From Terriglobus aquaticus (GTDB taxonomy: Bacteria > Acidobacteriota > Terriglobia > Terriglobales > Acidobacteriaceae): DNA of 64,000 nucleotides. Positions 60-11,221 of this stretch are shown here, in pieces (the first letter of the stretch is position 1; the number at the start of each line of letters is the position of its first letter). The notes beneath the pieces are model-generated. The model had not been told where the DNA came from, did not search any database, and saw nothing but the letters and a program-made list of their open reading frames with translations. The position numbers and the translations under genes were made by a program. The stretch is from positions 124,001 to 188,000 of the forward strand of contig NZ_JAGSYB010000001.1 of NCBI RefSeq assembly GCF_025685415.1, given 5' to 3'.

Positions 60-686
60 TTACGCTTCGTGATCGGCGAACTGATTAGGCAGCGCGTCCA
101 TGGGGTCGAGGGCGTCTGGGTCGGCGGTTTCGTCGAAGGTTTGCTGGTGATTTTTGCTGCCGAGGGCGCGCATGACGCGGGTGCTGTGCGCGCCGCGGCG
201 CATGGCCATGCGGCCGGTGCGGCTGACCTCGAGGATCTCGTAGCCGGACTCGCGCAGGACCTGGATGAGACCTTCGATCTTGGACGAGGAGCCGGTCATC
301 TCGAGCATGATGCTGTCGGGTGCGAGGTCGACGACGCGGGCGCGGAAGACGTCGGAGAGCTCGAAGATTTGGGTGCGCGACTGGATGCCGTGCGGAGACT
401 GCGGGCCGGCGGCGACCTTGATAAGGCAGAGCTCGCGGACGACTGCTTCGGCGCGGCCGACTTCGTCCACGTCGCGCGTGATCTCGAGCTTGTAGAGCGA
501 CGCGCGGATGCGGTGGGCGGCATTCTCTGCGGCTTCGCAGACGATGGTCATGCGCGAGACGTCTTCGTTCTCGGTCTCGCCGACGGTGAGCGAGGCGATG
601 TTGATGTTGAGCCGGCGGAAGAGCGAGGCGACGCGCGTGAGCACGCCGGGCTTGTTGTCCACGAGTGCGATGAAGGTGTGCAGCAT
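60..686 (-). CDS. ilvN: Acetolactate synthase small (regulatory) subunit
   Basis: Regulatory subunit of acetohydroxyacid synthase, which binds the IlvB catalytic subunit and confers valine feedback inhibition in the cytoplasm. The protein is 208 aa from the ATG at 686, which is preceded by GGAG four bases away; a longer upstream reading has no family similarity. Residues 4-76 are a typical N-terminal ACT domain (FIALVDNKPGVLTRVASLF, then NINIASLTVGETE). Residues 84-164 match the C-terminal ALS small-subunit domain (VVRELCLIKV, SIMLEMTGSSSKIEGLI, ILEVSRTGRMAMRRG). An acidic tail of about 40 residues follows and makes it longer than the usual 160-175 aa. It is the last complete gene of the leu-ilv operon, separated from the gene before it by an 83-base leader that carries short direct repeats. 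Confidence 0.95.
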   Translation of the reverse strand: MLHTFIALVDNKPGVLTRVASLFRRLNINIASLTVGETENEDVSRMTIVCEAAENAAHRIRASLYKLEITRDVDEVGRAEAVVRELCLIKVAAGPQSPHGIQSRTQIFELSDVFRARVVDLAPDSIMLEMTGSSSKIEGLIQVLRESGYEILEVSRTGRMAMRRGAHSTRVMRALGSKNHQQTFDETADPDALDPMDALPNQFADHEA

Positions 687-727
687 AAAACTCCAGCGAG
701 TCAGCAGAACCCTTTCGGGTGTGATTC

Positions 728-753
728 GAGTCAGCGAAGTCAGCGGGTCAGCG
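728..753. repeat. Tandem GTCAGC repeats in the ilvN leader
   Basis: Three consecutive near-copies of a 9-bp unit (GAGTCAGCG, AAGTCAGCG, GGTCAGCG) lie here, and a fourth GAGTCAGC lies at 698-705. Between them is a small hairpin ACCC-GAAA-GGGT on the transcript (about 709-720). In the mRNA the repeats read CGCTGAC. This is the only sizeable gap within the ilv half of the operon, so a role in translation or mRNA processing of ilvN is conceivable, but nothing in the sequence proves it. Confidence 0.5.
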
Positions 754-769
754 CTGGTTGCTGAGCGGC

Positions 770-1306
770 TTAGTCGGTGATGCGTTCGAGTACGTTCATG
801 GTGCGGAAGTAGAGCGTAAGTTGGCCGGGTGTTGGCGGTTCTGTTGTCTTGCCACAACGGTTTTGCGCGACCACCCCGGTTGAAAGAATCTGGGCGATGG
901 AGAAGCGTTCTGCCTTATCGGTATCGATGCTGCTCTTCGTTCGCGGTGTGCAGGACTTGTAGTCGACAACGATCGGGTTCAGGATTTCGCCTTTGTCCGC
1001 GACGGTGGCTTCGGCGAGCCCGTTCGTGTCGGTCTTAATTTCATGTTCTTCCGCGTGCGACATGAGGTGTTGTTTGTTGCGTTCGAGGAAGATTTCTTTA
1101 TCTGCGATGGGCTGGCCGGTCTTGCCATTGAGTAGGCGGATGTGGATGGTCGTTGTGGCTTCGGCACCGAACGGCCTGCGCTGCTGTGTGTCGGCCTGCT
1201 GCCGTTGCGGCGCAACGGTTTCGTTCTGCGCGGGCGCGGTTTGCGCGTACGCAAGCGTTGCGCCGAACAGGACCGAAGAAGCAGCGATGAGGTGACGAGT
1301 TCCCAC
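770..1306 (-). CDS. Secreted protein of unknown function inside the ilv operon
   Basis: Not recognised as a named family. The 178-aa product starts with a GTG that shares its first base with the ilvB TAG stop (TAGTG), preceded by GAGGA, so it is translationally coupled to ilvB. Residues 1-21 look like a Sec signal peptide (hydrophobic core ending AYAQ). A Q/T-rich linker follows, then about 110 residues with a beta-rich pattern (TTIHIRLLNGKTGQPIADKEIFL, TDTNGLAEATV) that resembles the carboxypeptidase-regulatory/Ig-like folds used in bacterial secreted adapters. Two cysteines near the C-terminus (KSCTPRT, QNRCGKT) could form a disulphide. An exported protein sitting between ilvB and ilvN is unusual, and its function is unknown. 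Confidence 0.7.
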   Translation of the reverse strand: MGTRHLIAASSVLFGATLAYAQTAPAQNETVAPQRQQADTQQRRPFGAEATTTIHIRLLNGKTGQPIADKEIFLERNKQHLMSHAEEHEIKTDTNGLAEATVADKGEILNPIVVDYKSCTPRTKSSIDTDKAERFSIAQILSTGVVAQNRCGKTTEPPTPGQLTLYFRTMNVLERITD

Positions 1307-3108
1307 TAGTCCTCGCTCGTTTCGATCAGCGGGTTGGGGCGGCGCACCATTTCGTGCAGGGCGGAGCCGGGCGCGATCATCGGGTACACGCCGTCTTCTT
1401 TTTCAACGGCGAAGTTGATGAGGAAAGAGCCTTCACCGGTGCGGGCGCGGGTGACCGTGGGCAGCACCTGGCTTCGTTCGGTCACGTGTGCGCCGGGGAT
1501 GCCGTGCGCGTCGGCGAGCTTCACGAAGTCGGGCGAGAGGATGGGGGAGCAGGCGTAGTTCTTGTCGTAGAACGCCTCCTGCCACTGGCGCACCATGCCC
1601 AGAAAGCCGTTGTTGATGACGGCGATGTTGATGTGCAGCTTCTCCTGCTGAATGGTAGAGAGTTCCGCGGCGGTCATCTGGAAGCCGCCGTCGCCGGCGA
1701 TGACCCAGACGTCTTTTTCGGGGCAGGCCATCTTGGCACCGATGGCCGCCGGCAGCCCGAAGCCCATGGTGCCCAGGCCGCCCGAGGTCATGAGGGTGCG
1801 GGTGTCTTCGTGACGGTAGTACTGCGCCTCCCACATCTGGTGCTGGCCCACGTCGGTCGAGATGATGGTCTGGTCGAGGCGGCCTGCGGCTTTGGCCTCC
1901 TGCCAGATGTCGTTGATGACGTGAGCGGCGTAGAGGTGGCCGTTGTCGGGCAGCGAGAGGATGTCGCGCACGCTGGCATCGCCCTTCATGCGGCGGATCT
2001 CCTCGCGCCATTGCGAGGTGGCGTCGTGGTCGCGTGGCGCGCCAAGCCGATCGATGAGCGGAGCGATGGTGTGCAGCACCTGCTTCAAGTCACCAATTAG
2101 AGCGACGTCGACCTTGACGTTCTTATTGATCTCGCTGGGATCGATCTCAATGTGGATCTTCTTCGCGTTGGGAGCGTAGTGCGCCAGGTTGCCGGTGACG
2201 CGATCATCGAAGCGCATGCCAAACGCGAGCAGCAGATCGGCCTGCTGGATGGCGTGGTTGACCCATGACTCGCCGTGCATGCCCATCATGCCGAGCGCGA
2301 GCGGGTGCGACGCAGGGAAGGCACCAAGGCCAAGCAGCGTGGTGGCGACGGGGATCTTGTGGCGCTCGGCGAAGGCGAGCACTTCGGCTTCGGCCTCACT
2401 CTGCATGATGCCGTGTCCCGCGAGGATGACAGGGCGCGAGGACGCGCGCATGAGTTCGATGGCGCGCTGCATCTCTGCCGATTCGGAGCGCAGCATGGGG
2501 TGCGGGCGATACGGCTTGGGTGCGGCCTGCGCGAAGTCGAACAGCGTGGAGGCCTGCTGCGCGTCCTTCGTGATGTCGACGAGCACGGGGCCGGGGCGGC
2601 CGGACTGCGCAATCTGGAAAGCTTGACGCAGCATGGGAGCGATGTCTTCGGCGCGCGTGGCGACAAAGTTGTGCTTGGTGATGGGCAGGGTGATGCCCGT
2701 GATGTCGATCTCCTGAAAAGCGTCGGTGCCGAGCACCTTGCTGGCGACCTGGCCGGTGATGGCGACGACCGGGATGGAGTCGAGCATGGCAGTCGCGAGA
2801 CCGGTGACCAGGTTGGTTGCGCCGGGACCGCTGGTGGCGACGCATACGCCGACCTTGCCGCTGGCGCGCGCGTAGCCGTCGGCCATGTGCGCCGCTCCCT
2901 GTTCGTGGCGCACGAGCACGTGGTGGATTGGGAACTTGCGCAGGGCGTCGTAGACGGGGAGGATGGCGCCTCCGGGATAGCCAAAGACGGTGGTGACGCC
3001 TTCGCCGGCGAGGGTAGCCCAGAGGATTTCAGCGCCGGTGAGGGTTGGCGCTGCACCTTGCAGGTGATTGTTGTCCTGGCTTGATTGCATCGTGTTCTGG
3101 TCGCTCAT
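1306..3108 (-). CDS. ilvB: Acetolactate synthase large (catalytic) subunit
   Basis: ThDP-dependent enzyme that condenses two pyruvates to acetolactate, or pyruvate with 2-oxobutyrate, the first committed step of valine/isoleucine synthesis. It is 600 aa from the ATG at 3108, which overlaps the stop of the TPR gene as ATGA and has GGGGAG eight bases upstream; an in-frame extension to 3246 is not supported. Three-domain architecture: an N-terminal Pyr domain with the catalytic glutamate (VLVRHEQGAAHMADGYARA, E69), a central domain, and a C-terminal ThDP domain with GDGGFQMTAAEL...NNGFLGMVRQWQ. A poorly conserved Q/N-rich stretch of about 20 residues precedes the core. It pairs with IlvN, encoded downstream. 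Confidence 0.97.
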   Translation of the reverse strand: MSDQNTMQSSQDNNHLQGAAPTLTGAEILWATLAGEGVTTVFGYPGGAILPVYDALRKFPIHHVLVRHEQGAAHMADGYARASGKVGVCVATSGPGATNLVTGLATAMLDSIPVVAITGQVASKVLGTDAFQEIDITGITLPITKHNFVATRAEDIAPMLRQAFQIAQSGRPGPVLVDITKDAQQASTLFDFAQAAPKPYRPHPMLRSESAEMQRAIELMRASSRPVILAGHGIMQSEAEAEVLAFAERHKIPVATTLLGLGAFPASHPLALGMMGMHGESWVNHAIQQADLLLAFGMRFDDRVTGNLAHYAPNAKKIHIEIDPSEINKNVKVDVALIGDLKQVLHTIAPLIDRLGAPRDHDATSQWREEIRRMKGDASVRDILSLPDNGHLYAAHVINDIWQEAKAAGRLDQTIISTDVGQHQMWEAQYYRHEDTRTLMTSGGLGTMGFGLPAAIGAKMACPEKDVWVIAGDGGFQMTAAELSTIQQEKLHINIAVINNGFLGMVRQWQEAFYDKNYACSPILSPDFVKLADAHGIPGAHVTERSQVLPTVTRARTGEGSFLINFAVEKEDGVYPMIAPGSALHEMVRRPNPLIETSED

Positions 3109-3677
3109 GCGGTGTGCTCCCCGTGGTGGATGTTCAGCGACTTGCTGTACTGTTCGTGGTGCTTCAGACCTTCCAGGTGCTCTTCTGCTTCGCGAACGCC
3201 GTCGGTGACGTTCTGTGATGCGTAGAGGAGTTTGGCCTCGAGCCACTGCGAGTGCGCCTGGCGTTCGTTGTTCAGCGCGGAGACACGCAGCGCGTTGGCA
3301 AGATCGAGCGATTCGGACTCAACCTCGGTGGAGCGATAGAGGCGAATGGCTTCTTCGATCTGCGTACCGGCGACGCCGTATTCCTTCATCTCAGAGCGGA
3401 CTTCCGCGGCGTGACGTAAGGCGTGCGCGAGTTCGGTGGTGTTGTTGGCCGTGCGAAAGAGCGTGATGGCTTCGGCGTAGTAGATGGCTGCGCCCGTGCG
3501 GTCGCCTGCGTCGCGACGGGCTTGCGCGACACCCACAAGCGCTTCGGCGCGCTCGCAGGCTTCATGCGCCTCGGCCTGCGCAGCGGCTTCTTTGAAAAGG
3601 CGCTCGGCTTCAGCAGCTTCGCCCGATTGGCGAAGATGCCGCGCGCGATGCAGCAGCGACTTGAACTGTTCGATCAC
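3105..3677 (-). CDS. TPR-repeat protein embedded between ilvD and ilvB
   Basis: A 190-aa soluble, all-helical protein with tetratricopeptide-like repeats through residues 1-150, each pairing small residues with aromatics (LRQSGEAAEAERLFKEA; AQARRDAGDRTGAAIYYAEAITLF; LRHAAEVRSEMKEYGVAGTQIEEAIRLY). TPRs mediate protein-protein contacts, so a scaffolding or assembly role for the Ilv enzymes is an inference only. The start is a GTG that overlaps the ilvD stop (GTGA), and its own stop overlaps the ilvB start (ATGA), so it is translationally coupled on both sides. There is no signal peptide or membrane segment. I know of no standard ilv-operon component of this type. Confidence 0.85.
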   Translation of the reverse strand: MIEQFKSLLHRARHLRQSGEAAEAERLFKEAAAQAEAHEACERAEALVGVAQARRDAGDRTGAAIYYAEAITLFRTANNTTELAHALRHAAEVRSEMKEYGVAGTQIEEAIRLYRSTEVESESLDLANALRVSALNNERQAHSQWLEAKLLYASQNVTDGVREAEEHLEGLKHHEQYSKSLNIHHGEHTA

Positions 3678-5374
3678 GACGTCACCGCGCCCTGGCTGGC
3701 GCTGCCTACACTGTTGGCGTACTTGGCAAAGACGCCACGCTGGTAGCGAGGAACTCTTGGCTGAAAGTTGCGGAGGCGCTCAGCGAGTTCCTCGTCGCTG
3801 ATGTTTACGTTGAGCTGGCGGTTTGGGATGTCGAAGGTGATCATGTCGCCTTCGCGCACTGCGGCGATGGGACCGCCGAGTTGTGCTTCGGGAGCAACGT
3901 GGCCAGCCATAAGGCCGCGTGTAGCGCCTGAAAAGCGGCCATCGGTGAGCAGGGCAACGGTCTCGCTGAGTTCGGGGATGCCTTTGATGGCGGCAGTGAC
4001 GGCGAGCATCTCGCGCATACCTGGGCCGCCCTTTGGGCCTTCGTAGCGAATAACGCAGACGTCGTTCGGCTTGATGTCGCCACGCTCGACCGCGGCAAAG
4101 CAGAGGTCTTCGGAGTCGAAGACGCGCGCGGGGCCGGTGTGGTGGATGCGTTCGTGGCCGGCGACTTTCACGACGCAGCCATCGGGTGCAAGATTGCCGC
4201 GCAGGATGACGAGGCCGCCGGTGGGCTTCAATGGGTCTGACCAGTTATGGATGACGGGCTGGTTCGGCGTTTCGTGCGCGGTGCTGGCTTCTTCGCGCAG
4301 GGTCCTGCCGCTGACGGTGATGTTGTCGTGAAGCTGGTTGCGCTCGATGAGGCGCTGCGCGAGAACACGGCTGCCGCCGGCTTCCTGGTAGTCCTTGGCG
4401 TTGTACTTGCCGCCTGGCGACAGATCGCAGATGAATGGGGTGCGCTCGCTGATTTTGTCGAAGTCCTCCATCGTCAGCGGAATGCTGAGTTCATGCGCGA
4501 TGGCAATCAGGTGGAGCACGGCGTTGGTGGAGCCGCCCGATGCGCAGACTGCCGTGATGGCGTTTTCGATGGACTCGCGCGTCAGGATCTGCGATGGCTT
4601 GATGTTTTTACGCACCAGGTCCATGACCATGCGACCGGCTTCGCGCGAGGCGTTTGCCTTTTCGGGCGACATGGCGGGGACGCCGGTGATTTCCATGGGG
4701 CTGATACCGAGGAACTCGCCCGCCATGGCCATCGTGTTCGCGGTGAACTGGCCGCCGCAGGCGCCGGGCCCGGGGCAGGCCGCGGCCTCTACGGCTTCAA
4801 GCTGGTCGTCGTTGATCTTGCCAGCCGCGTGTGAGCCGATGGCCTCGAAGACGTTGAGGATGGTGATCTCTTTGTTCGTGCCGTCGGGCTGGCGCAATTG
4901 GCCAGGCATAATCGATCCGCCGTAGAGCATGAGACCGGGGATGTCGAGACGAGCGAGCGCCATGACTGCAGCGGGCATGTTCTTGTCGCAGCCAGCGATG
5001 CAGACCAGACCGTCGAAGCTGTTACCGCGCGTGACGAGTTCGATGGAGTCGGCGATGACTTCGCGCGAGATGAGCGAGGCCTTCATGCCCTCGGTGCCCA
5101 TGGTGATGCCGTCGGAGATGGTGACGGTGTTGAACTCCATGGGTGTGCCGCCTGCTTCGCGAATGCCTTGCTTCACGGCTTCGGCGACCTGGCGCAGATG
5201 AAAGTTGCAGGGGCCGATCTCGGTCCACGTGTTTGCGATGCCGATGATGGGCTTGTGCAGGTCTTCTTTGCTGAAGCCTACGCCGCGCAGGTAGGAGCGT
5301 GCGGCCGCGCGGGATGGGCCTTCGGTGAGGACGGTGCTGTTGCGCTTTCCGGGATCGTTCTGCATTGTGCTCAT
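3674..5374 (-). CDS. ilvD: Dihydroxy-acid dehydratase
   Basis: Fe-S-dependent dehydration of 2,3-dihydroxy-3-methylbutanoate and its isoleucine counterpart to the 2-oxo acids. The 566 aa match the family length. Conserved cysteine motifs are visible: CIAGCDKNMPAAVM near residue 125 and AACPGPGACGGQFTANTM near residue 195. The C-terminal signature is LTDGRFSGATRGLMAGHVAPEA. The chosen ATG at 5374 overlaps the stop of the upstream 74-aa gene (ATGA); a second ATG three codons later is possible, and the region upstream is not family-like. It is coupled to the TPR gene by a GTGA overlap at its 3' end. Confidence 0.97.
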   Translation of the reverse strand: MSTMQNDPGKRNSTVLTEGPSRAAARSYLRGVGFSKEDLHKPIIGIANTWTEIGPCNFHLRQVAEAVKQGIREAGGTPMEFNTVTISDGITMGTEGMKASLISREVIADSIELVTRGNSFDGLVCIAGCDKNMPAAVMALARLDIPGLMLYGGSIMPGQLRQPDGTNKEITILNVFEAIGSHAAGKINDDQLEAVEAAACPGPGACGGQFTANTMAMAGEFLGISPMEITGVPAMSPEKANASREAGRMVMDLVRKNIKPSQILTRESIENAITAVCASGGSTNAVLHLIAIAHELSIPLTMEDFDKISERTPFICDLSPGGKYNAKDYQEAGGSRVLAQRLIERNQLHDNITVSGRTLREEASTAHETPNQPVIHNWSDPLKPTGGLVILRGNLAPDGCVVKVAGHERIHHTGPARVFDSEDLCFAAVERGDIKPNDVCVIRYEGPKGGPGMREMLAVTAAIKGIPELSETVALLTDGRFSGATRGLMAGHVAPEAQLGGPIAAVREGDMITFDIPNRQLNVNISDEELAERLRNFQPRVPRYQRGVFAKYANSVGSASQGAVTS

Positions 5375-5595
5375 TTCTGCAAGGTGCCCAGCGTGTTGAT
5401 CTCGGTTCGGTGTTGCCTGCGTTCTCTCCAAAAGCCGACGACAGACAGCAAGAGACCTGTGAGTTGTATCAATGCTGCTAGATGTCTGCTTGCTCGGGCA
5501 TGCGCTTCAGGATTCTCCGAAAACCACAGGGTTAGAAGAGAACCGATGACAAGCAAGCCATAGGCGAACCAACGAAAAAGCCGTATTCGAGTCAT
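5371..5595 (-). CDS. Small two-helix membrane protein in the leu-ilv operon
   Basis: A 74-aa protein with two predicted transmembrane helices (about residues 8-25, WFAYGLLVIGSLLTLWF, and 40-57, AALIQLTGLLLSVVGFW) and a basic, polar C-terminus (RERRQHRTEINT). It starts one base after the leuD stop and ends in an ATGA overlap with ilvD. This tight packing is the main argument that it is real, since no homologous family is recognised. Together with the 58-aa protein upstream of leuC it forms a pattern of tiny membrane proteins interleaved with cytosolic enzymes. Its function is unknown. Confidence 0.7.
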   Translation of the reverse strand: MTRIRLFRWFAYGLLVIGSLLTLWFSENPEAHARASRHLAALIQLTGLLLSVVGFWRERRQHRTEINTLGTLQK

Positions 5596-5596
5596 C

Positions 5597-6250
5597 TTAG
5601 GAGCTGCTCTGCAGCGCCTTCGGAGCGGACCAGAACTCCGCGTTGTGTCTCGTTTCGAAGGCGTCGAGCGCGTCGGTGTGGCGCAGGGTGAGGCCGATGT
5701 CGTCGAGCCCGTTGAGCAGGCAGAACTTGCGGAACGGATCGATCTCGAAGCGAGCGTGGAAGCCCTGATCGTCGACTACGGTCTGGTGTTCCAGGTTGAT
5801 CGTGATCTGGTGATCGGGGTTCCGGGTGGAGCGCTGCAGGAGTGTCTCGACCTTGTCGTCGTCGAGGCGGACGAGGATGATGCCGTTCTTGCCCGCGTTC
5901 GAAAAGAAGATGTCGGCAAAGGTGGGTGCGATGACGCAGCGGAAACCGTACTGCTGGATGGCCCACGCGGCGTGTTCGCGCGAGGAGCCGCAGCCGAAGT
6001 TCTTTTCGGCGATGAGGATCTTCGCGCCCTGGTATTCGGGCTTGTTCAGCACGAAATCGCGCTTGGGCAGCAGTTGTTCCGAGAGGCCCGAGCCGGTGCC
6101 CACGTCGTAGCGCCAGTCGAAGAAGAGGAAGTCGCCGTAGCCGGTGCGCTCGATGCGCTTGAGGAACTGCTTCGGGATGATCTGGTCCGTGTCGATGTTG
6201 GGCAGGGGCAGGGGAACGGCTTTGCTGGTGAGGATATTGATGGGTTCCAC
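5597..6250 (-). CDS. leuD: 3-isopropylmalate dehydratase small subunit
   Basis: Small (swivelling) subunit of isopropylmalate isomerase, which with LeuC converts 2- to 3-isopropylmalate. It is 217 aa from a GTG start that shares a base with the leuC stop (TAGTG), with a strong AAGGAGG six bases upstream; a longer ATG-started reading (from 6280) inside leuC is less likely. The family core is clear: NIDTDQIIPKQFLKRI near the N-terminus, then FGCGSSREHAAWAI and the IAPTFADIFFSNAGKNGI segment. It forms a translationally coupled pair with leuC. Confidence 0.96.
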   Translation of the reverse strand: MEPINILTSKAVPLPLPNIDTDQIIPKQFLKRIERTGYGDFLFFDWRYDVGTGSGLSEQLLPKRDFVLNKPEYQGAKILIAEKNFGCGSSREHAAWAIQQYGFRCVIAPTFADIFFSNAGKNGIILVRLDDDKVETLLQRSTRNPDHQITINLEHQTVVDDQGFHARFEIDPFRKFCLLNGLDDIGLTLRHTDALDAFETRHNAEFWSAPKALQSSS

Positions 6251-7683
6251 TAGCGACCTCCTTCGGAGTTCTGCTTCCATTTGCGGACGTCGGTGAAGTG
6301 GCCTGCGATGGCTGCTGCTGCGGCCATTTCGGGACTGACGAGATGGGTGCGGCCGCCGCGGCCCTGGCGGCCTTCGAAGTTGCGGTTGGATGTGCTGGCG
6401 CAGCGCTCGCCCGGCGAGAGAATATCGGGGTTCATGCCGAGGCACATGCTGCAGCCGGGTTCACGCCACTCGAAGCCGGCCTGCTTAAAGACGGTGTCCA
6501 AGCCTTCTTCTTCGGCCTGCTTCTTCACGACCTGTGAGCCGGGTACGACCATTGCGCGGATCTTTGCAGCGATGTGCTGGCCGCGCACGATGTCTGCCGC
6601 GGCGCGCAGGTCTTCGATGCGGCCGTTGGTGCAGGAGCCGAGGAAGACTGTGTCGATCTGAATCTGTTCCATGGGCGTGCCGGGCTTCAGATCCATGTAC
6701 TCATAGGCGCGCTCGAAGCTCTTGCGATCGGCTTCAGTCGGCGCTTGGTCGAGCGTGGGCACAGCGCCGTCGATGGTGGCGTGCATGCCGGGCGAGGTGC
6801 CCCAGGTGACTGCGGGTGCGAGTGTGGCGGCATCGATGGTGAGCTCGCGGTCGAAGATTGCGCCGGGGTCTGTGGGCAGCGTGCGCCAGTGGGCAACGGC
6901 CTCGTCCCAGGCTGCACCCTGCGGGCTGAAGCGGCGGCCTTTCAGGTAAGCGAAGGTAGTTTCGTCGGGGGCGATCATGCCGGCGCGGGCCCCTGCTTCG
7001 ATGCTCATGTTGCAGACCGTCATGCGGCCTTCCATGCTGAGCGCGCGGATGGCGGAGCCGGCGTACTCCACGGCGTAGCCAGTTGCGCCGTCGGTGCCGA
7101 TGCGGCCGATGATGTCGAGGATGATGTCCTTTGCGGTGACGCCGAAGGGCAGATCGCCTTCAACGTTGATGCGAAAGGTCTTGGGCTTCGGTTGCGGCAG
7201 CGTTTGAGTCGCCATCACGTGCTCGACTTCGCTGGTGCCGATGCCGAAGGCCAGCGCACCGAAAGCGCCGTGCGTGCTGGTGTGCGAGTCGCCGCAGACG
7301 ATGGTCATGCCGGGCTTGGTCGCGCCCAACTCCGGCCCAATCATGTGCACGATGCCCTGCGATGCGTCCTGCACGTCGAAGAACTCGATGCCGAACTCGG
7401 CGCAGTTCTTGCGGAGGGCATTGACCTGTGCGGCGCTGACCTGGTCGACGATGTTGAGGCGATCGGCAGCGCTGGTGGTCGGTACGTTGTGGTCGACCGT
7501 GGCGATGTGGCGGTCGGGGCGGCGCAGTTTGCGGCCGGCCATGCGCAGGCCATCGAAGGCCTGCGGTGACGTGACTTCGTGCACCAGCTGCAAATCAATG
7601 TAGAGCAGCGGCGGTTCGCCTGCGGGCTCTGCGACGATGTGTTGCTGCCAGATCTTTTCGAACAGTGTTTTCGGTTGCGACAT
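6250..7683 (-). CDS. leuC: 3-isopropylmalate dehydratase large subunit
   Basis: Aconitase-family large subunit carrying the 4Fe-4S cluster. It is 477 aa from ATG 7683, which overlaps the stop of the 58-aa gene as TGATG and has GAGGA nine bases upstream. Visible hallmarks are [26 protein letters not shown], the first cluster cysteine in [13 protein letters not shown], and the last two in [31 protein letters not shown]. About 44 in-frame residues upstream of the chosen start are not family-like. It acts with LeuD in the cytoplasm. Confidence 0.97.
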
Positions 7684-7859
7684 CAGCGTAATCCTCTTGC
7701 TGCTTGCTTCTGCTTCCAGTACATCAGGCCGTTGGCGATGGGGAGAGCGATCGTGGCAGTAATCACGATCGCCACCCAAGGTGCGCCCCGCCAAAGCTCT
7801 ATCGCCAGACCGCACACAATTGCGACGTTCACAACTGCGGCTCTGACGAGCGGTGTCAT
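7683..7859 (-). CDS. Tiny two-helix membrane protein between leuB and leuC
   Basis: A 58-aa ORF with two hydrophobic helices (about residues 5-22, [18 protein letters not shown], and 28-46, [19 protein letters not shown]) and a basic tail ending [10 protein letters not shown]. It is bounded by an ATGA overlap with the leuB stop and a TGATG overlap with the leuC start. The double coupling makes it a credible gene although it matches no family I know. A longer ATG/GTG-started reading in the same frame runs antisense-like through leuB and is rejected. Its function is unknown; it is a second example of a membrane micro-protein in this operon. Confidence 0.65.
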
Positions 7860-8968
7860 GCGGCGCTCAGCCTCGCTTCGACTTTGCCGAGGATCAACTC
7901 GCCCATCTGCGTGGTGGCGAGCGTGGTCTGGCCGGCTACGTTGCCGCGGGCGATATCGGTGGTGCGGTTGCCCTCGTTCAGGGCTTCGTCTACGGCGTCC
8001 TCGATAAGCTTCGCTTCGGCTTCCATGCCGGCGGAGTGACGCAGCACCATGGCGGCGGTCAGGATGGCGCCAATGGGGTTCGCTTTGCCGGTGCCGGCGA
8101 TGTCTGGCGCGGAGCCATGCACGGGTTCGTACAAATTCACTTTGCCACCCAACGTGGCGGAGGGAAGCATGCCGAGTGAGCCGGTGATGACGCCCGATTC
8201 GTCGGAGAGAATGTCGCCGAACAGGTTCTCGGTGAGGACCACGTCGAAGTCGCGCGGGCGCGTCATCAGGTGGATAGCCATAGAGTCGACGAGCTGGTGT
8301 TCGAGCGTGACGGTCGGGTAGTCGCGAGAGACGTCGGTAACGACAGCGCGCCACAGTTGCGAGCACTCGAGAACGTTCGCCTTGTCGACGCTGGTGATCT
8401 TCTTCTTTTCGCGACGCGACGCCAGGTCAAAGGCGATGCGTGCGACCCGTTCCACCTCGGCGCGGGTGTAGACCATGGTGTTGTGAGCGCGGTCGGTGCT
8501 CTTGTGCCAAGCGCGCGGCTCGCCGAAGTAGAGGCCACCGAGGAGTTCGCGCACAAAGAGGATGTCGGCGCCGTCGGTAATCTCCGGGCGCAGGGGGCTG
8601 TTGTCGGCCAGCGCCTTGTAGGCTACCGCGGGACGCAGGTTGGCAAAGCCGCCCAGCGCTGCACGAATCCTCAGCAGGCCGGCCTCTGGGCGCTCGCTGG
8701 GTGGCAGGTGATTGAACTTGTTATCTCCTACCGCGCCCAGTAGGGCGGCGTCGCATCTGAGCGTCTTTTCGAGCGTCTCGGGCGGCAGCGGTGTTCCGTA
8801 CGCCGTGATCGCAACGCCACCGATGAGCAGTGGAATGTACTCGAAGACGTGACCGCGTGCGTTCGCAACGGTGGTGAGTACATTGACGGCTTCGTTGGTG
8901 ACTTCAGGGCCGATGCCGTCTCCGGCGAGGATTGCAATCTTCAGGTGCACGTACACGTCCTTAGGCAT
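7856..8968 (-). CDS. leuB: 3-isopropylmalate dehydrogenase
   Basis: NAD-dependent oxidative decarboxylation of 3-isopropylmalate to 2-oxoisocaproate. The 370 aa match the family. The N-terminus [14 protein letters not shown] binds cofactor/substrate. The RxxLxxFxxLRP-type segment ([17 protein letters not shown]), the [19 protein letters not shown] loop and the metal aspartates in [27 protein letters not shown] are all present, followed by [19 protein letters not shown]. The start could be the ATG at 8968 or an in-frame GTG six codons later that has AAGGA seven bases upstream. It follows leuA after a 69-base gap containing a palindromic repeat. Confidence 0.96.
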
Positions 8969-8990
8969 TCAGGGGGCGAGTTCTAAGAGC

Positions 8991-9016
8991 AGATCCTTCG
9001 CTTCGCTCAGGATGAC
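8991..9016. repeat. REP-like palindrome between leuA and leuB
   Basis: The 26-bp block reads, on the transcribed strand, GTCATCCTGAGC-GAA-GCGAAGGATCT. ATCCT/AGGAT and GC/GC arms pair around a GAA loop. I recognise this sequence as a type found intergenically many times in some environmental bacterial genomes, Acidobacteria included; that is from memory, not a search. Only one copy is visible in this window. Located inside the operon, it could stabilise or terminate the leuA part of the message. Confidence 0.65.
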
Positions 9017-9037
9017 ACTGCTGTGAGAAAGGGTGAG

Positions 9038-10198
9038 CTAGACCGTTTGCGGCACCAGCGCGATGATGTCCTGGTCGTAGATGGACTTCTTGCGATCGGC
9101 CAGAGCCGTGAAGCGCGTGTAGGTCTGGTCAAGCTCTTCGCGGCTCAGTTCGAAGCCTAGTTCTTTGAGCCGGTGCTCCAGGGCGCGGCGGCCACTGTGC
9201 TTGCCGAGCACGATGGTGTTGGCATTCACGCCAAATCGTGAGGCGGACATGATCTCGTAGGTGAGCGGGTTGGCGAGAACGCCGTGCTGGTGGATGCCGC
9301 TGGCGTGAGCGAAGGCGTTCTTGCCCACAATAGCTTTGTTGGGCGACGGCGTGAAGGAGATGATCTCGTCGAGCAGACGGCTCGTGGCGCCAATCTCGTC
9401 CAGCTTGAGCCGGTTGGCAAAGGGGTACTGGTCGTGGCGGATGTTGAGAATGGCAGCAACCTCCTCCAGCGCAGCGTTGCCGGCGCGCTCGCCGATGCCG
9501 TGGATCGAAACTTCCACCTGGCGGGCACCACCGCACACGCCGGAGAGGGTGTTGATGGTGGCGAGCCCAAGGTCGTCATGGCAGTGCGTGGAGAAGACGA
9601 CGGTATCGGCGCCGGGAACACGATCGCGCACAGCCTGGAACATCTGCTGGTACTCGGCGGGGGTGGAGTAGCCCACCGTGTCGGGCAGGTTGATGGTCGT
9701 GGCGCCCGCCTGGATGGCGACGGTGATCATCTGCACGAGAAAGTCGAGGTCGGAGCGGGTGGCGTCTTCTGCGGAGAACTCAACATCTTCGGCGAAGGTG
9801 CGCGCCAAGCGAACGCACTCCCCGGTCTGGTCCAGCGCCTGCTGGCGGGTGATGCGCAGCTTGGCTTCCAGATGAAGGTCAGACGAGGCAAGAAAGGTGT
9901 GGATGCGATTGCTCTGTGCGGGCGCCACCGCGGCCGCGGCGCGCTCGATGTCGCCCTGCTTACAGCGGGCGAGAGCAGCGATACGGGCGCCGCGCACCTC
10001 GGTCGCGATGGCGCGAACGGACTCGAAATCGCCGTCGGAGGCGATGGGGAAACCCGCCTCGATGATGTCCACATTGAGTTGCGCGAGCTGGTGGGCGAAG
10101 CGCACTTTTTCTGCGTGGTGCATGGTGCAGCCGGGCGATTGCTCGCCGTCGCGGAGTGTGGTGTCGAAAAAAAGTACCTGATTGTTTGCCGTGGTCAT
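9038..10198 (-). CDS. leuA: 2-isopropylmalate synthase, short form without regulatory domain
   Basis: Condenses acetyl-CoA with 2-oxoisovalerate, the first step of leucine synthesis. The DRE-TIM-barrel catalytic domain is intact: FFDTTLRDGEQSPG (residues 10-23), FSTHCHDDLG with the metal-binding HxH, VEVSIHGIGERAGNAALEEV, and AFAHASGIHQHGVL. The protein is only 386 aa, against about 510-570 for ordinary LeuA. It ends shortly after the subdomain-II helices (LIALVPQTV), so the C-terminal LeuA allosteric (leucine-binding) domain is absent and no continuation is visible in other frames. Leucine feedback inhibition may therefore be missing. A related activity (citramalate or homocitrate synthase) is possible, but the adjacent leuBCD supports LeuA. 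It is the first gene of the operon, and its SD is weak. Confidence 0.9.
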   Translation of the reverse strand: MTTANNQVLFFDTTLRDGEQSPGCTMHHAEKVRFAHQLAQLNVDIIEAGFPIASDGDFESVRAIATEVRGARIAALARCKQGDIERAAAAVAPAQSNRIHTFLASSDLHLEAKLRITRQQALDQTGECVRLARTFAEDVEFSAEDATRSDLDFLVQMITVAIQAGATTINLPDTVGYSTPAEYQQMFQAVRDRVPGADTVVFSTHCHDDLGLATINTLSGVCGGARQVEVSIHGIGERAGNAALEEVAAILNIRHDQYPFANRLKLDEIGATSRLLDEIISFTPSPNKAIVGKNAFAHASGIHQHGVLANPLTYEIMSASRFGVNANTIVLGKHSGRRALEHRLKELGFELSREELDQTYTRFTALADRKKSIYDQDIIALVPQTV

Positions 10199-10228: not shown

Positions 10229-10243
10229 ATAAGCAAGCCTTAT
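10229..10243. promoter_or_regulatory. LysR-type operator candidate (ATAAG-N5-CTTAT)
   Basis: A perfect 5-bp inverted repeat, ATAAG CAAGC CTTAT, contains the T-N11-A core (T10230, A10242) typical of LysR-family boxes. It lies in the 90-bp divergent region between leuA and a lysR gene, 31 bases upstream of the leuA start and 46 bases upstream of the regulator start, where such a regulator would normally bind. Confidence 0.55.
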
Positions 10244-10288: not shown

Positions 10289-11221
10289 ATGGATCTGTTT
10301 GCACTGGAAACCTTTGTTGCTGTAGCGGAAGAACGTAGCTTTTCGCGGGCGGCCCTGCGGCTGCGACGCACCCAGCCTGCGGTGAGCCAGACTATCGCCA
10401 AGCTGGAAGCCGAACTGGGTGAGACCCTATTTGAGCGAGCGGCTCGGGACGGATCGCTGACAGACGCGGGCGAGGTTCTGCGCGAATACGCCCAGAAATT
10501 GCTGAATCTACGACAGGAGGCGACCGACGCCCTCGGGGACCTGCGATCGCTGCACCGGGGGCGGCTGAACCTGGCCGCCAACGAGTACACCTGCCTCTCC
10601 CTGCTTCCGGTTCTGGATCAGTTTTGCCGGGCCTATCCCAGGATCAAGGTCGCCGTGCAGCGATCGCTTGCAAGCCGCATTCCGGACGAGGTGCTGGCGC
10701 ACGGCGTGGAACTGGGAATCGTCAGCTTTCGCCCGGACGATCCTTCGCTGGAGTCGATTGTGATCTTCCGCGACGAGCTGGCGTTTGTGGTGAATCCGGG
10801 CCATGCGCTGGCGGGTGCGGAGTCTGTTTCGATCCGGCAGCTAGATGGCGAGCACTTTGTCGCGCACAATGTGGCGTCGCCGCAACGGCAAAAGGTGCTG
10901 GAGGCATTCCAGCGGCACAAGACGCACCTGCGAATCGATGTGGAGTTGCCGTCGCTTGAGGCGGTCCGGCGCTTTGTAGAGCAGGGAAACGGCGTGGCGC
11001 TGGTTCCGGCGCTGACTGTAGAGAGAGAACTGTCATCGGGGGCGCTGGTACGTGTTCCTGTCCGCGAACTGCACATGGAACGCAAGCTGCGTGTGGTGTA
11101 TCGCAGGAATGCTGCGCTGTCCCACGCTGCAGTGAGCTTCCTGCGGCAGGTGGAGATGTACGCAGCCGGCTCCGGCGGTGCCTACTGCTACGAACAGGAA
11201 AAGCCGGCAAAGCTGCGATAG
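10289..11221 (+). CDS. LysR-family transcriptional regulator, divergent from leuA
   Basis: A 310-aa LysR-type regulator. Residues 1-60 form the winged helix-turn-helix (FVAVAEERSFSRAALRLRRTQPAVSQTIAKLEAELGETLFER), followed by a linker helix and a periplasmic-binding-like effector domain (about 90-295; LGIVSFRPDDPSLESI, VRRFVEQGNGVALVPALTVE). The gene is divergent from leuA with operator-like palindromes between them. By the usual LysR rule it probably controls the leu-ilv operon and itself, perhaps with a pathway intermediate as coinducer, as IlvY and LeuO-type regulators do; the effector is unknown. The ATG at 10289 has only a weak purine-rich SD. The C-terminal 20 residues are non-conserved. 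Confidence 0.93.
   Translation: MDLFALETFVAVAEERSFSRAALRLRRTQPAVSQTIAKLEAELGETLFERAARDGSLTDAGEVLREYAQKLLNLRQEATDALGDLRSLHRGRLNLAANEYTCLSLLPVLDQFCRAYPRIKVAVQRSLASRIPDEVLAHGVELGIVSFRPDDPSLESIVIFRDELAFVVNPGHALAGAESVSIRQLDGEHFVAHNVASPQRQKVLEAFQRHKTHLRIDVELPSLEAVRRFVEQGNGVALVPALTVERELSSGALVRVPVRELHMERKLRVVYRRNAALSHAAVSFLRQVEMYAAGSGGAYCYEQEKPAKLR

Follow-up and report, generated by a model that had tools for sequence, protein, structure and literature searches.

The window analysed here, a stretch of 64,000 nt from Terriglobus aquaticus (assembly GCF_025685415.1, contig NZ_JAGSYB010000001.1, positions 124,001-188,000), carries from 10198 to 60 on its minus strand a leu-ilv operon in which four non-enzymatic genes are lodged between the enzyme genes, all on one strand and in the order leuA-leuB-mem58-leuC-leuD-mem74-ilvD-TPR-ilvB-sec-ilvN. 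The arrangement leuABCD-ilvDBN-ilvC is conserved across the Acidobacteriaceae and the extra genes vary; these extras are likely to be passenger genes occupying the intergenic slots of an otherwise ordinary operon. Relatives possess the enzymes without the extras, the set found in the window is unique in our sample, and the families concerned are also encoded elsewhere, a combination that fits passengers in a stable operon. Furthermore, the fidelity of the families to their slots, the purifying selection acting on them and some of their overlaps with enzyme genes show these passengers to be genuine and possibly, to some extent, co-expressed by design.

The run of eleven genes with four inserts, as given in the preliminary description, was confirmed, the enzymes being identified by NCBIfam and Pfam models. 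They are leuA (2-isopropylmalate synthase, 386 aa, 9038-10198; NF002086 at 582.8 bits, cut-off 532), leuB (3-isopropylmalate dehydrogenase, 7856-8968; TIGR00169), leuC and leuD (large and small subunits of isopropylmalate dehydratase, 6250-7683 and 5597-6250; TIGR00170 and PF00694), ilvD (dihydroxy-acid dehydratase, 3674-5374; TIGR00110, NF002068), ilvB (acetolactate synthase large subunit, 1306-3108; TIGR00118 and thiamine pyrophosphate domains) and ilvN (its small subunit, 60-686; TIGR00119, PF10369). ilvC follows ilvN at 56 nt; its start codon (ATG) forms the last three bases of the minus strand (1-3), and the rest of the gene, with KARI domains PF07991 and PF01450, lies beyond the window. 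The inserts are mem58 (58-aa predicted membrane protein, 7683-7859), mem74 (74-aa orphan and predicted membrane protein, 5371-5595), the gene of a TPR protein of 190 aa (3105-3677) and sec (178-aa putative exported protein, 770-1306). Read from the sequence, seven of their eight flanks are either overlaps of 4 or 1 nt or gaps of a single nucleotide: leuB-mem58 (-4, ATGA), mem58-leuC (-1, TGATG), leuD-mem74 (+1), mem74-ilvD (-4), ilvD-TPR (-4, GTGA), TPR-ilvB (-4) and ilvB-sec (-1, TAGTG). Every insert is thus joined to one or both neighbours, as had been described, and leuC-leuD also overlap by one base (TAGTG). The earlier wording that the genes follow each other with almost no gaps holds for most junctions and fails for two spacers, leuA-leuB (+69) and sec-ilvN (+83). 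In any case, tight packing alone is an ordinary feature of operons.

The comparison covered the operons of family genomes together with 80 named loci (the best 80 matches listed), in which every spacer was mapped, and the 1207 open reading frames (ORFs) of at least 35 aa found in spacers were compared by iterated profile search at E≤1e-3. Eight duplicate loci, loci showing one operon enzyme at most and loci with IlvD below 66% identity were left out of the counts; T. roseus L135 and L079 are the same locus. A quick IQ-TREE phylogeny of LeuC, IlvD and IlvB (81 rows, midpoint-rooted for drawing) was derived from the operon itself and hence is not an independent species tree, and the row counts are non-independent, since L067, L069, L071 and L072 are very closely related to one another, as are L077 and L078. 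A branch with SH-aLRT 100 separates 42 rows (among them the window and those named Granulicella, Edaphobacter and Terriglobus), hereafter the clade, from 39 others, the outgroup. Besides the families of mem58, the TPR protein and sec, three families not in the window occupy slots of these operons, namely cl0 (17 members, between leuB and leuC), cl1 (12 members with an invariant lipobox-like cysteine, between ilvB and ilvN) and cl7 (6 members, between leuD and ilvD). At least one of these six slot families is present in 31 of the 41 other clade rows versus 1 of the 39 outgroup rows, with the proviso that many rows are contigs ending within the operon, where absences are partly unreal. Among complete operons besides that of the window, 4 of 28 from the clade (L074, L077, L078 and L137) and 27 of 28 from the outgroup lack all six families, and mem58, TPR and sec never occur together (0/56 other complete operons). 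Spacers longer than 250 nt amount to 88/229 in the clade versus 13/244 outside it. The preliminary description had named the absence of the extras from close relatives with a conserved operon as the outcome that would contradict it, and this is what we observed.

In mem58, residues 1-47 lie within hydrophobic windows on the Kyte-Doolittle scale; no Pfam or NCBIfam match was obtained at E≤1, nor any solved relative below E 0.3. Its 13 homologues in leu-ilv spacers all sit between leuB and leuC. A profile search matched 7 of 150 family genomes, with the window and two others having the gene in the leu-ilv operon; the four remaining matches, one of them part of a longer frame of 169 residues, show no leu-ilv gene in flanks of about 1.5 kb or less. 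Another of these four, a mem58-like protein of 63 aa from a different genus of Acidobacteriaceae (L263, 7549-7740), is encoded by a gene flanked by gcvH and gcvPA. Separately, in the glycine cleavage operon of L262 (10581-12051) the space from gcvPA to gcvPB contains three ORFs (191, 114 and 173 aa), these gene names being assigned by eye.

For the TPR protein, an AlphaFold model built from six sequences (pLDDT 88.9) shows nine helices, whose repeated pairs are predicted to form a solenoid fitting the tetratricopeptide repeat (TPR) class. The best fold matches are TPR domains of kinesin light chains (E down to 1.9e-5), and Pfam TPR_12 is matched at 24.1 bits, under its cut-off of 30.1. Every one of its five slot homologues lies between ilvD and ilvB; a sixth relative (L076) lies behind ilvD where the contig ends and stands outside the slot counts, as that contig is without ilvB. 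The profile matched 34 of the 150 family genomes, 24 of them weakly (E above 1e-5) and mostly in long frames. The stronger matches within the operon are the window and one copy of G064; nine others, including a second G064 copy, have no leu-ilv gene within the 12-18 kb fetched. One of these nine is situated upstream of a chorismate synthase gene.

The product of sec starts with a signal-peptide-like segment ending in AYA before Q (judged by eye), and its model (pLDDT 74.4) suggests a small beta-sandwich domain with weak matches to CnaB/transthyretin-like folds (best Foldseek E 2.8e-3, for CnaB; none at E≤0.001). No Pfam match above cut-off was found for it or for members of A3. Six homologues in five operons were detected, all between ilvB and ilvN. 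Sec-like proteins were matched in 27 of the 150 family genomes, with a second copy in the genome of the window itself, and among the hit loci that were retrieved, ilvB and ilvN appear in the flanks of the window copy in the operon and of G098 alone. A distant kinship of sec with cl1 or cl7 was considered and rejected (hhalign probability 0.2% and 1.1%). sec and cl1 never share the ilvB-ilvN slot of a complete operon, in numbers too small for mutual exclusion. cl0 and cl7 appear secreted (by eye); Pfam matches of cl0, cl1 and cl7 are at chance level (best E 0.034, 0.036 and 0.013, respectively), and cl0 and cl1 have no solved relative below E 0.3. Outgroup locus L169 (Acidipila rosea) also carries cl0. 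Altogether, the check proposed at the outset, whether the inserts recur at matching positions in leu-ilv operons elsewhere in the Acidobacteriaceae, gave a positive answer for mem58, TPR and sec, and a negative one for mem74. Sequence and fold suggest that mem58 and mem74 act in the membrane, that sec is exported and that the TPR protein serves as an adaptor.

mem74 requires separate treatment. Apart from itself, it has no homologue at E≤1e-3 in the 150 family genomes, its own included (next best 0.0038), and iterated profiles revealed no relative among the leu-ilv spacer ORFs. Its assignment to DUF202, the best Pfam match, was discarded (17.1 bits, under the 23.4 cut-off). Composition is atypical, with a GC content at third codon positions (GC3) of 0.53 and an index akin to the codon adaptation index (CAI-like) of 0.22; mem58 likewise has low values (0.66 and 0.33), the seven operon enzymes, on which the index was trained, having values of 0.80-0.89 and 0.62-0.81. 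In shuffled sequences, an ORF of at least 70 codons ending in the ATGA of mem74 arose in 367 of 20,000 cases, and for this reason mem74 is probably a real gene, although not securely so. That it is a chance open frame, leaving three inserts, is unlikely: orphan status, atypical codon use and the roughly 2% chance in shuffles speak for it, whereas the frame fills its spacer exactly, one base after leuD and overlapping ilvD by four.

Selection was assessed as dN/dS in 14 hand-chosen pairs, dS being near saturation in many of them. Across the unsaturated pairs of five tested families values ranged from 0.09 to 0.51 (mem58 0.11-0.51, with one pair saturated; TPR 0.14, 0.14 and 0.32 in three pairs; sec 0.17 in one pair; cl0 0.09-0.26; cl1 0.11-0.32, with one pair saturated), and the enzymes in the same pairs gave 0.24 or less. 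In most comparisons an insert has a higher ratio than the enzymes paired with it, with exceptions: ilvD equals or exceeds TPR in two pairs, and exceeds sec and cl0 in one. These five families are therefore under purifying selection and are working protein-coding genes, without thereby being part of the pathway. Transposase pairs (0.14 and 0.07) and a GNAT pair (0.21) from the slots are similarly low, so that selection alone does not single out passengers. As for inheritance, mem58 and cl0 require 6 and 3 state changes within the clade, as few as which were found in 0 of 200 shuffles each; for cl1, 1 of 200 shuffles did as well.

Some observations weigh against a simple passenger interpretation. 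Slot fidelity is striking: when leu-ilv spacers were searched with profiles, every one of the six families turned up in a single slot. TPR and sec show a weak signal of vertical inheritance (8/200 shuffles as good each), and cl7 shows none (200/200). The TPR gene overlaps ilvB by 4 nt in four of five relatives, besides the window, and in 11 of 17 cases cl0 overlaps the leuC gene that comes after it, against a baseline of 14 overlaps of -4 or -1 among 263 short enzyme-enzyme junctions (leuC-leuD, usually -1, excluded). Other called genes are also present in the slots of outgroup loci L156, L160, L166, L173 and L184. Slot fidelity together with the TPR and cl0 overlaps could reflect selected co-translation with the enzymes. 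sec overlaps its upstream gene in 1/6 and its downstream gene in 0/6 cases, and cl1 its downstream gene in 0/12; given how little these two overlap, co-translation is not general, and by the junctions it may be relevant for some inserts, not all. It should be added that the start-codon chooser favoured -4/-1 starts for inserts, which inflates the upstream-overlap counts and leaves the downstream ones unaffected.

Under the passenger interpretation, the slot families would have been gained when the clade arose or close to that point, been inherited in place and been lost often. Transcription would proceed from the leu promoter, with which a LysR-type regulator gene is associated, and ribosomes would reach some passengers through stop/start overlaps. 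Their products would act independently: mem58 and mem74 would reside in the membrane and sec outside it, and the TPR protein would serve as a cytoplasmic adaptor. The benefit would be expression tied to amino-acid supply or growth rather than Leu/Ilv catalysis or assembly. The regulator gene is divergent from leuA (10289-11221, plus strand; PF00126 and PF03466 above cut-off), and most of the leuA upstream regions examined in relatives have a similar divergent ORF, LysR-like by eye. LysR boxes are of the T-N11-A type, and a palindrome of this type, ATAAGGCTTGCTTAT, chosen by eye, is located upstream of leuA (10229-10243, minus strand). Of 59 other regions upstream of leuA, 16 contain a relaxed form of ATAAGGCTTGCTTAT, versus 8 of 4000 random 130-mers from the same loci, and within Terriglobus (L065-L079) it is present in 10 of 12 such regions; judged from these motif counts, the palindrome is a likely operator.

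An alternative is that chance or mobile elements have swollen the operon, the slots being landing sites whose genes are kept since their removal disturbs the operon, with products of little use. The slots also hold unrelated proteins, including Y1 transposases, GNAT proteins, a cyanate lyase and GH127. Y1 (RAYT-like) transposases, one of them tested, occur in 10 of the 41 clade rows on the strand opposite the operon (L065, L066, L067, L074, L077-L079, L132, L133, where the copy is in two pieces, and L143), mostly between ilvB and ilvN and in some cases between ilvD and ilvB. GNAT genes were found in three operons, a GH127-like cluster (one tested) between ilvN and ilvC in three, and a cyanate lyase gene in one operon, that of a close relative, where it lies between ilvB and ilvN (L064, 6358-6807). 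In the window, the leuA-leuB spacer contains a single copy of a REP-like 26-mer, GTCATCCTGAGCGAAGCGAAGGATCT (8991-9016, minus strand), whose 23-base core occurs four times in the genome. Long spacers also occur in the his operon of this genus, where 15 of 81 junctions exceed 250 nt in 18 of 19 Terriglobus genomes (G160 excepted, the window included), compared with 26 of 96 leu-ilv junctions in Terriglobus with the window left out. Such spacers are thus characteristic of these genomes rather than peculiar to leu-ilv, and the idea that leu-ilv is uniquely insertion-prone was not supported by this comparison of lengths; in the genome of the window itself, six his genes show no spacer above 157 nt. 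Nonetheless, purifying selection on the five tested families and the inheritance in place of mem58 and cl0 run counter to mere swelling, which we regard as improbable. As an additional observation on this genus, neither IlvD (at E≤1e-150) nor IlvB (at E≤1e-200) was matched in G163 (94% complete); missing or replaced ilv genes are only possible there, as the cut-offs are strict and G150 fails the IlvB one although ilvB is present in its operon (L066).

It is also conceivable, albeit quite doubtful, that the slot families (small membrane, exported or lipoprotein, secreted and TPR proteins) constitute one envelope/adaptor response module of this acidobacterial clade, deliberately tied through translational coupling to branched-chain supply and kept in different subsets by different species. 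Finally, a membrane-linked metabolon, in which mem58 and mem74 would anchor and the TPR protein would scaffold the Leu/Ilv enzymes while co-translation aided assembly, is very improbable: same-slot recurrence, the recurrent ATGA overlaps (TPR-ilvB foremost) and the modelled TPR fold, typically a protein-binding one, agree with it, whereas all eight enzymes are retained in close relatives that have no extras, the set of the window is unique among the complete operons, the slots hold unrelated proteins, mem58, TPR and sec relatives adjoin unrelated genes, and sec, whose N terminus suggests export, would in that case be unable to scaffold cytosolic enzymes. The role in assembling or anchoring these enzymes put forward in the preliminary description is accordingly not upheld, as all six slot families are lacking in some of the complete clade operons and nearly all of the complete outgroup operons counted above, and mem58-like, TPR and sec-like proteins are also encoded away from branched-chain genes.

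Read as passengers, the inserts offer a clean comparative case of a housekeeping operon that gains, holds and loses genes in fixed slots. For uncharacterised conserved families (mem58, sec and the three outside the window), position in the operon is a testable clue to the timing of expression. The case also cautions against inferring a protein complex from tight packing. In Granulicella sp. WH15 under high sugar, valine- and leucine-related pathways are reported to be among those repressed (PMC7074687), an observation with no bearing on the inserts.

No description of this arrangement was found in the open-access literature, which is weak evidence of absence. Other Acidobacteriaceae operons (Silvibacterium, Acidobacterium, Terracidiphilus) share the same enzyme order, but have mostly short spacers (the outgroup count above) and a few other inserted genes. 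Mosaic operons arising by gene displacement similarly show shifting content with a persistent core gene order, whereas here genes are added between enzymes. The ilvGXMEDA operon of Escherichia coli encodes IlvX, a tiny protein of 16 aa, and thus likewise yields a small extra protein from a branched-chain operon. With metabolons the agreement fails, as the extras are not present wherever close kin have the enzyme operon. The closest parallel is with the "alien" and "ORFan" genes that operons can carry, according to a review (PMC10138114), being non-pathway or homologue-poor genes inside a biosynthetic operon. Here the inserts are embedded and co-oriented in a conserved operon that is intact without them in relatives, and they have homologues outside the pathway (mem58-like, sec-like and TPR proteins) or none (mem74, at E≤1e-3). 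Unlike in that parallel, unrelated families keep their slots across genera, some of them overlapping enzyme genes. Thus, alien and ORFan genes in operons are known, and the slot-faithful set is new.

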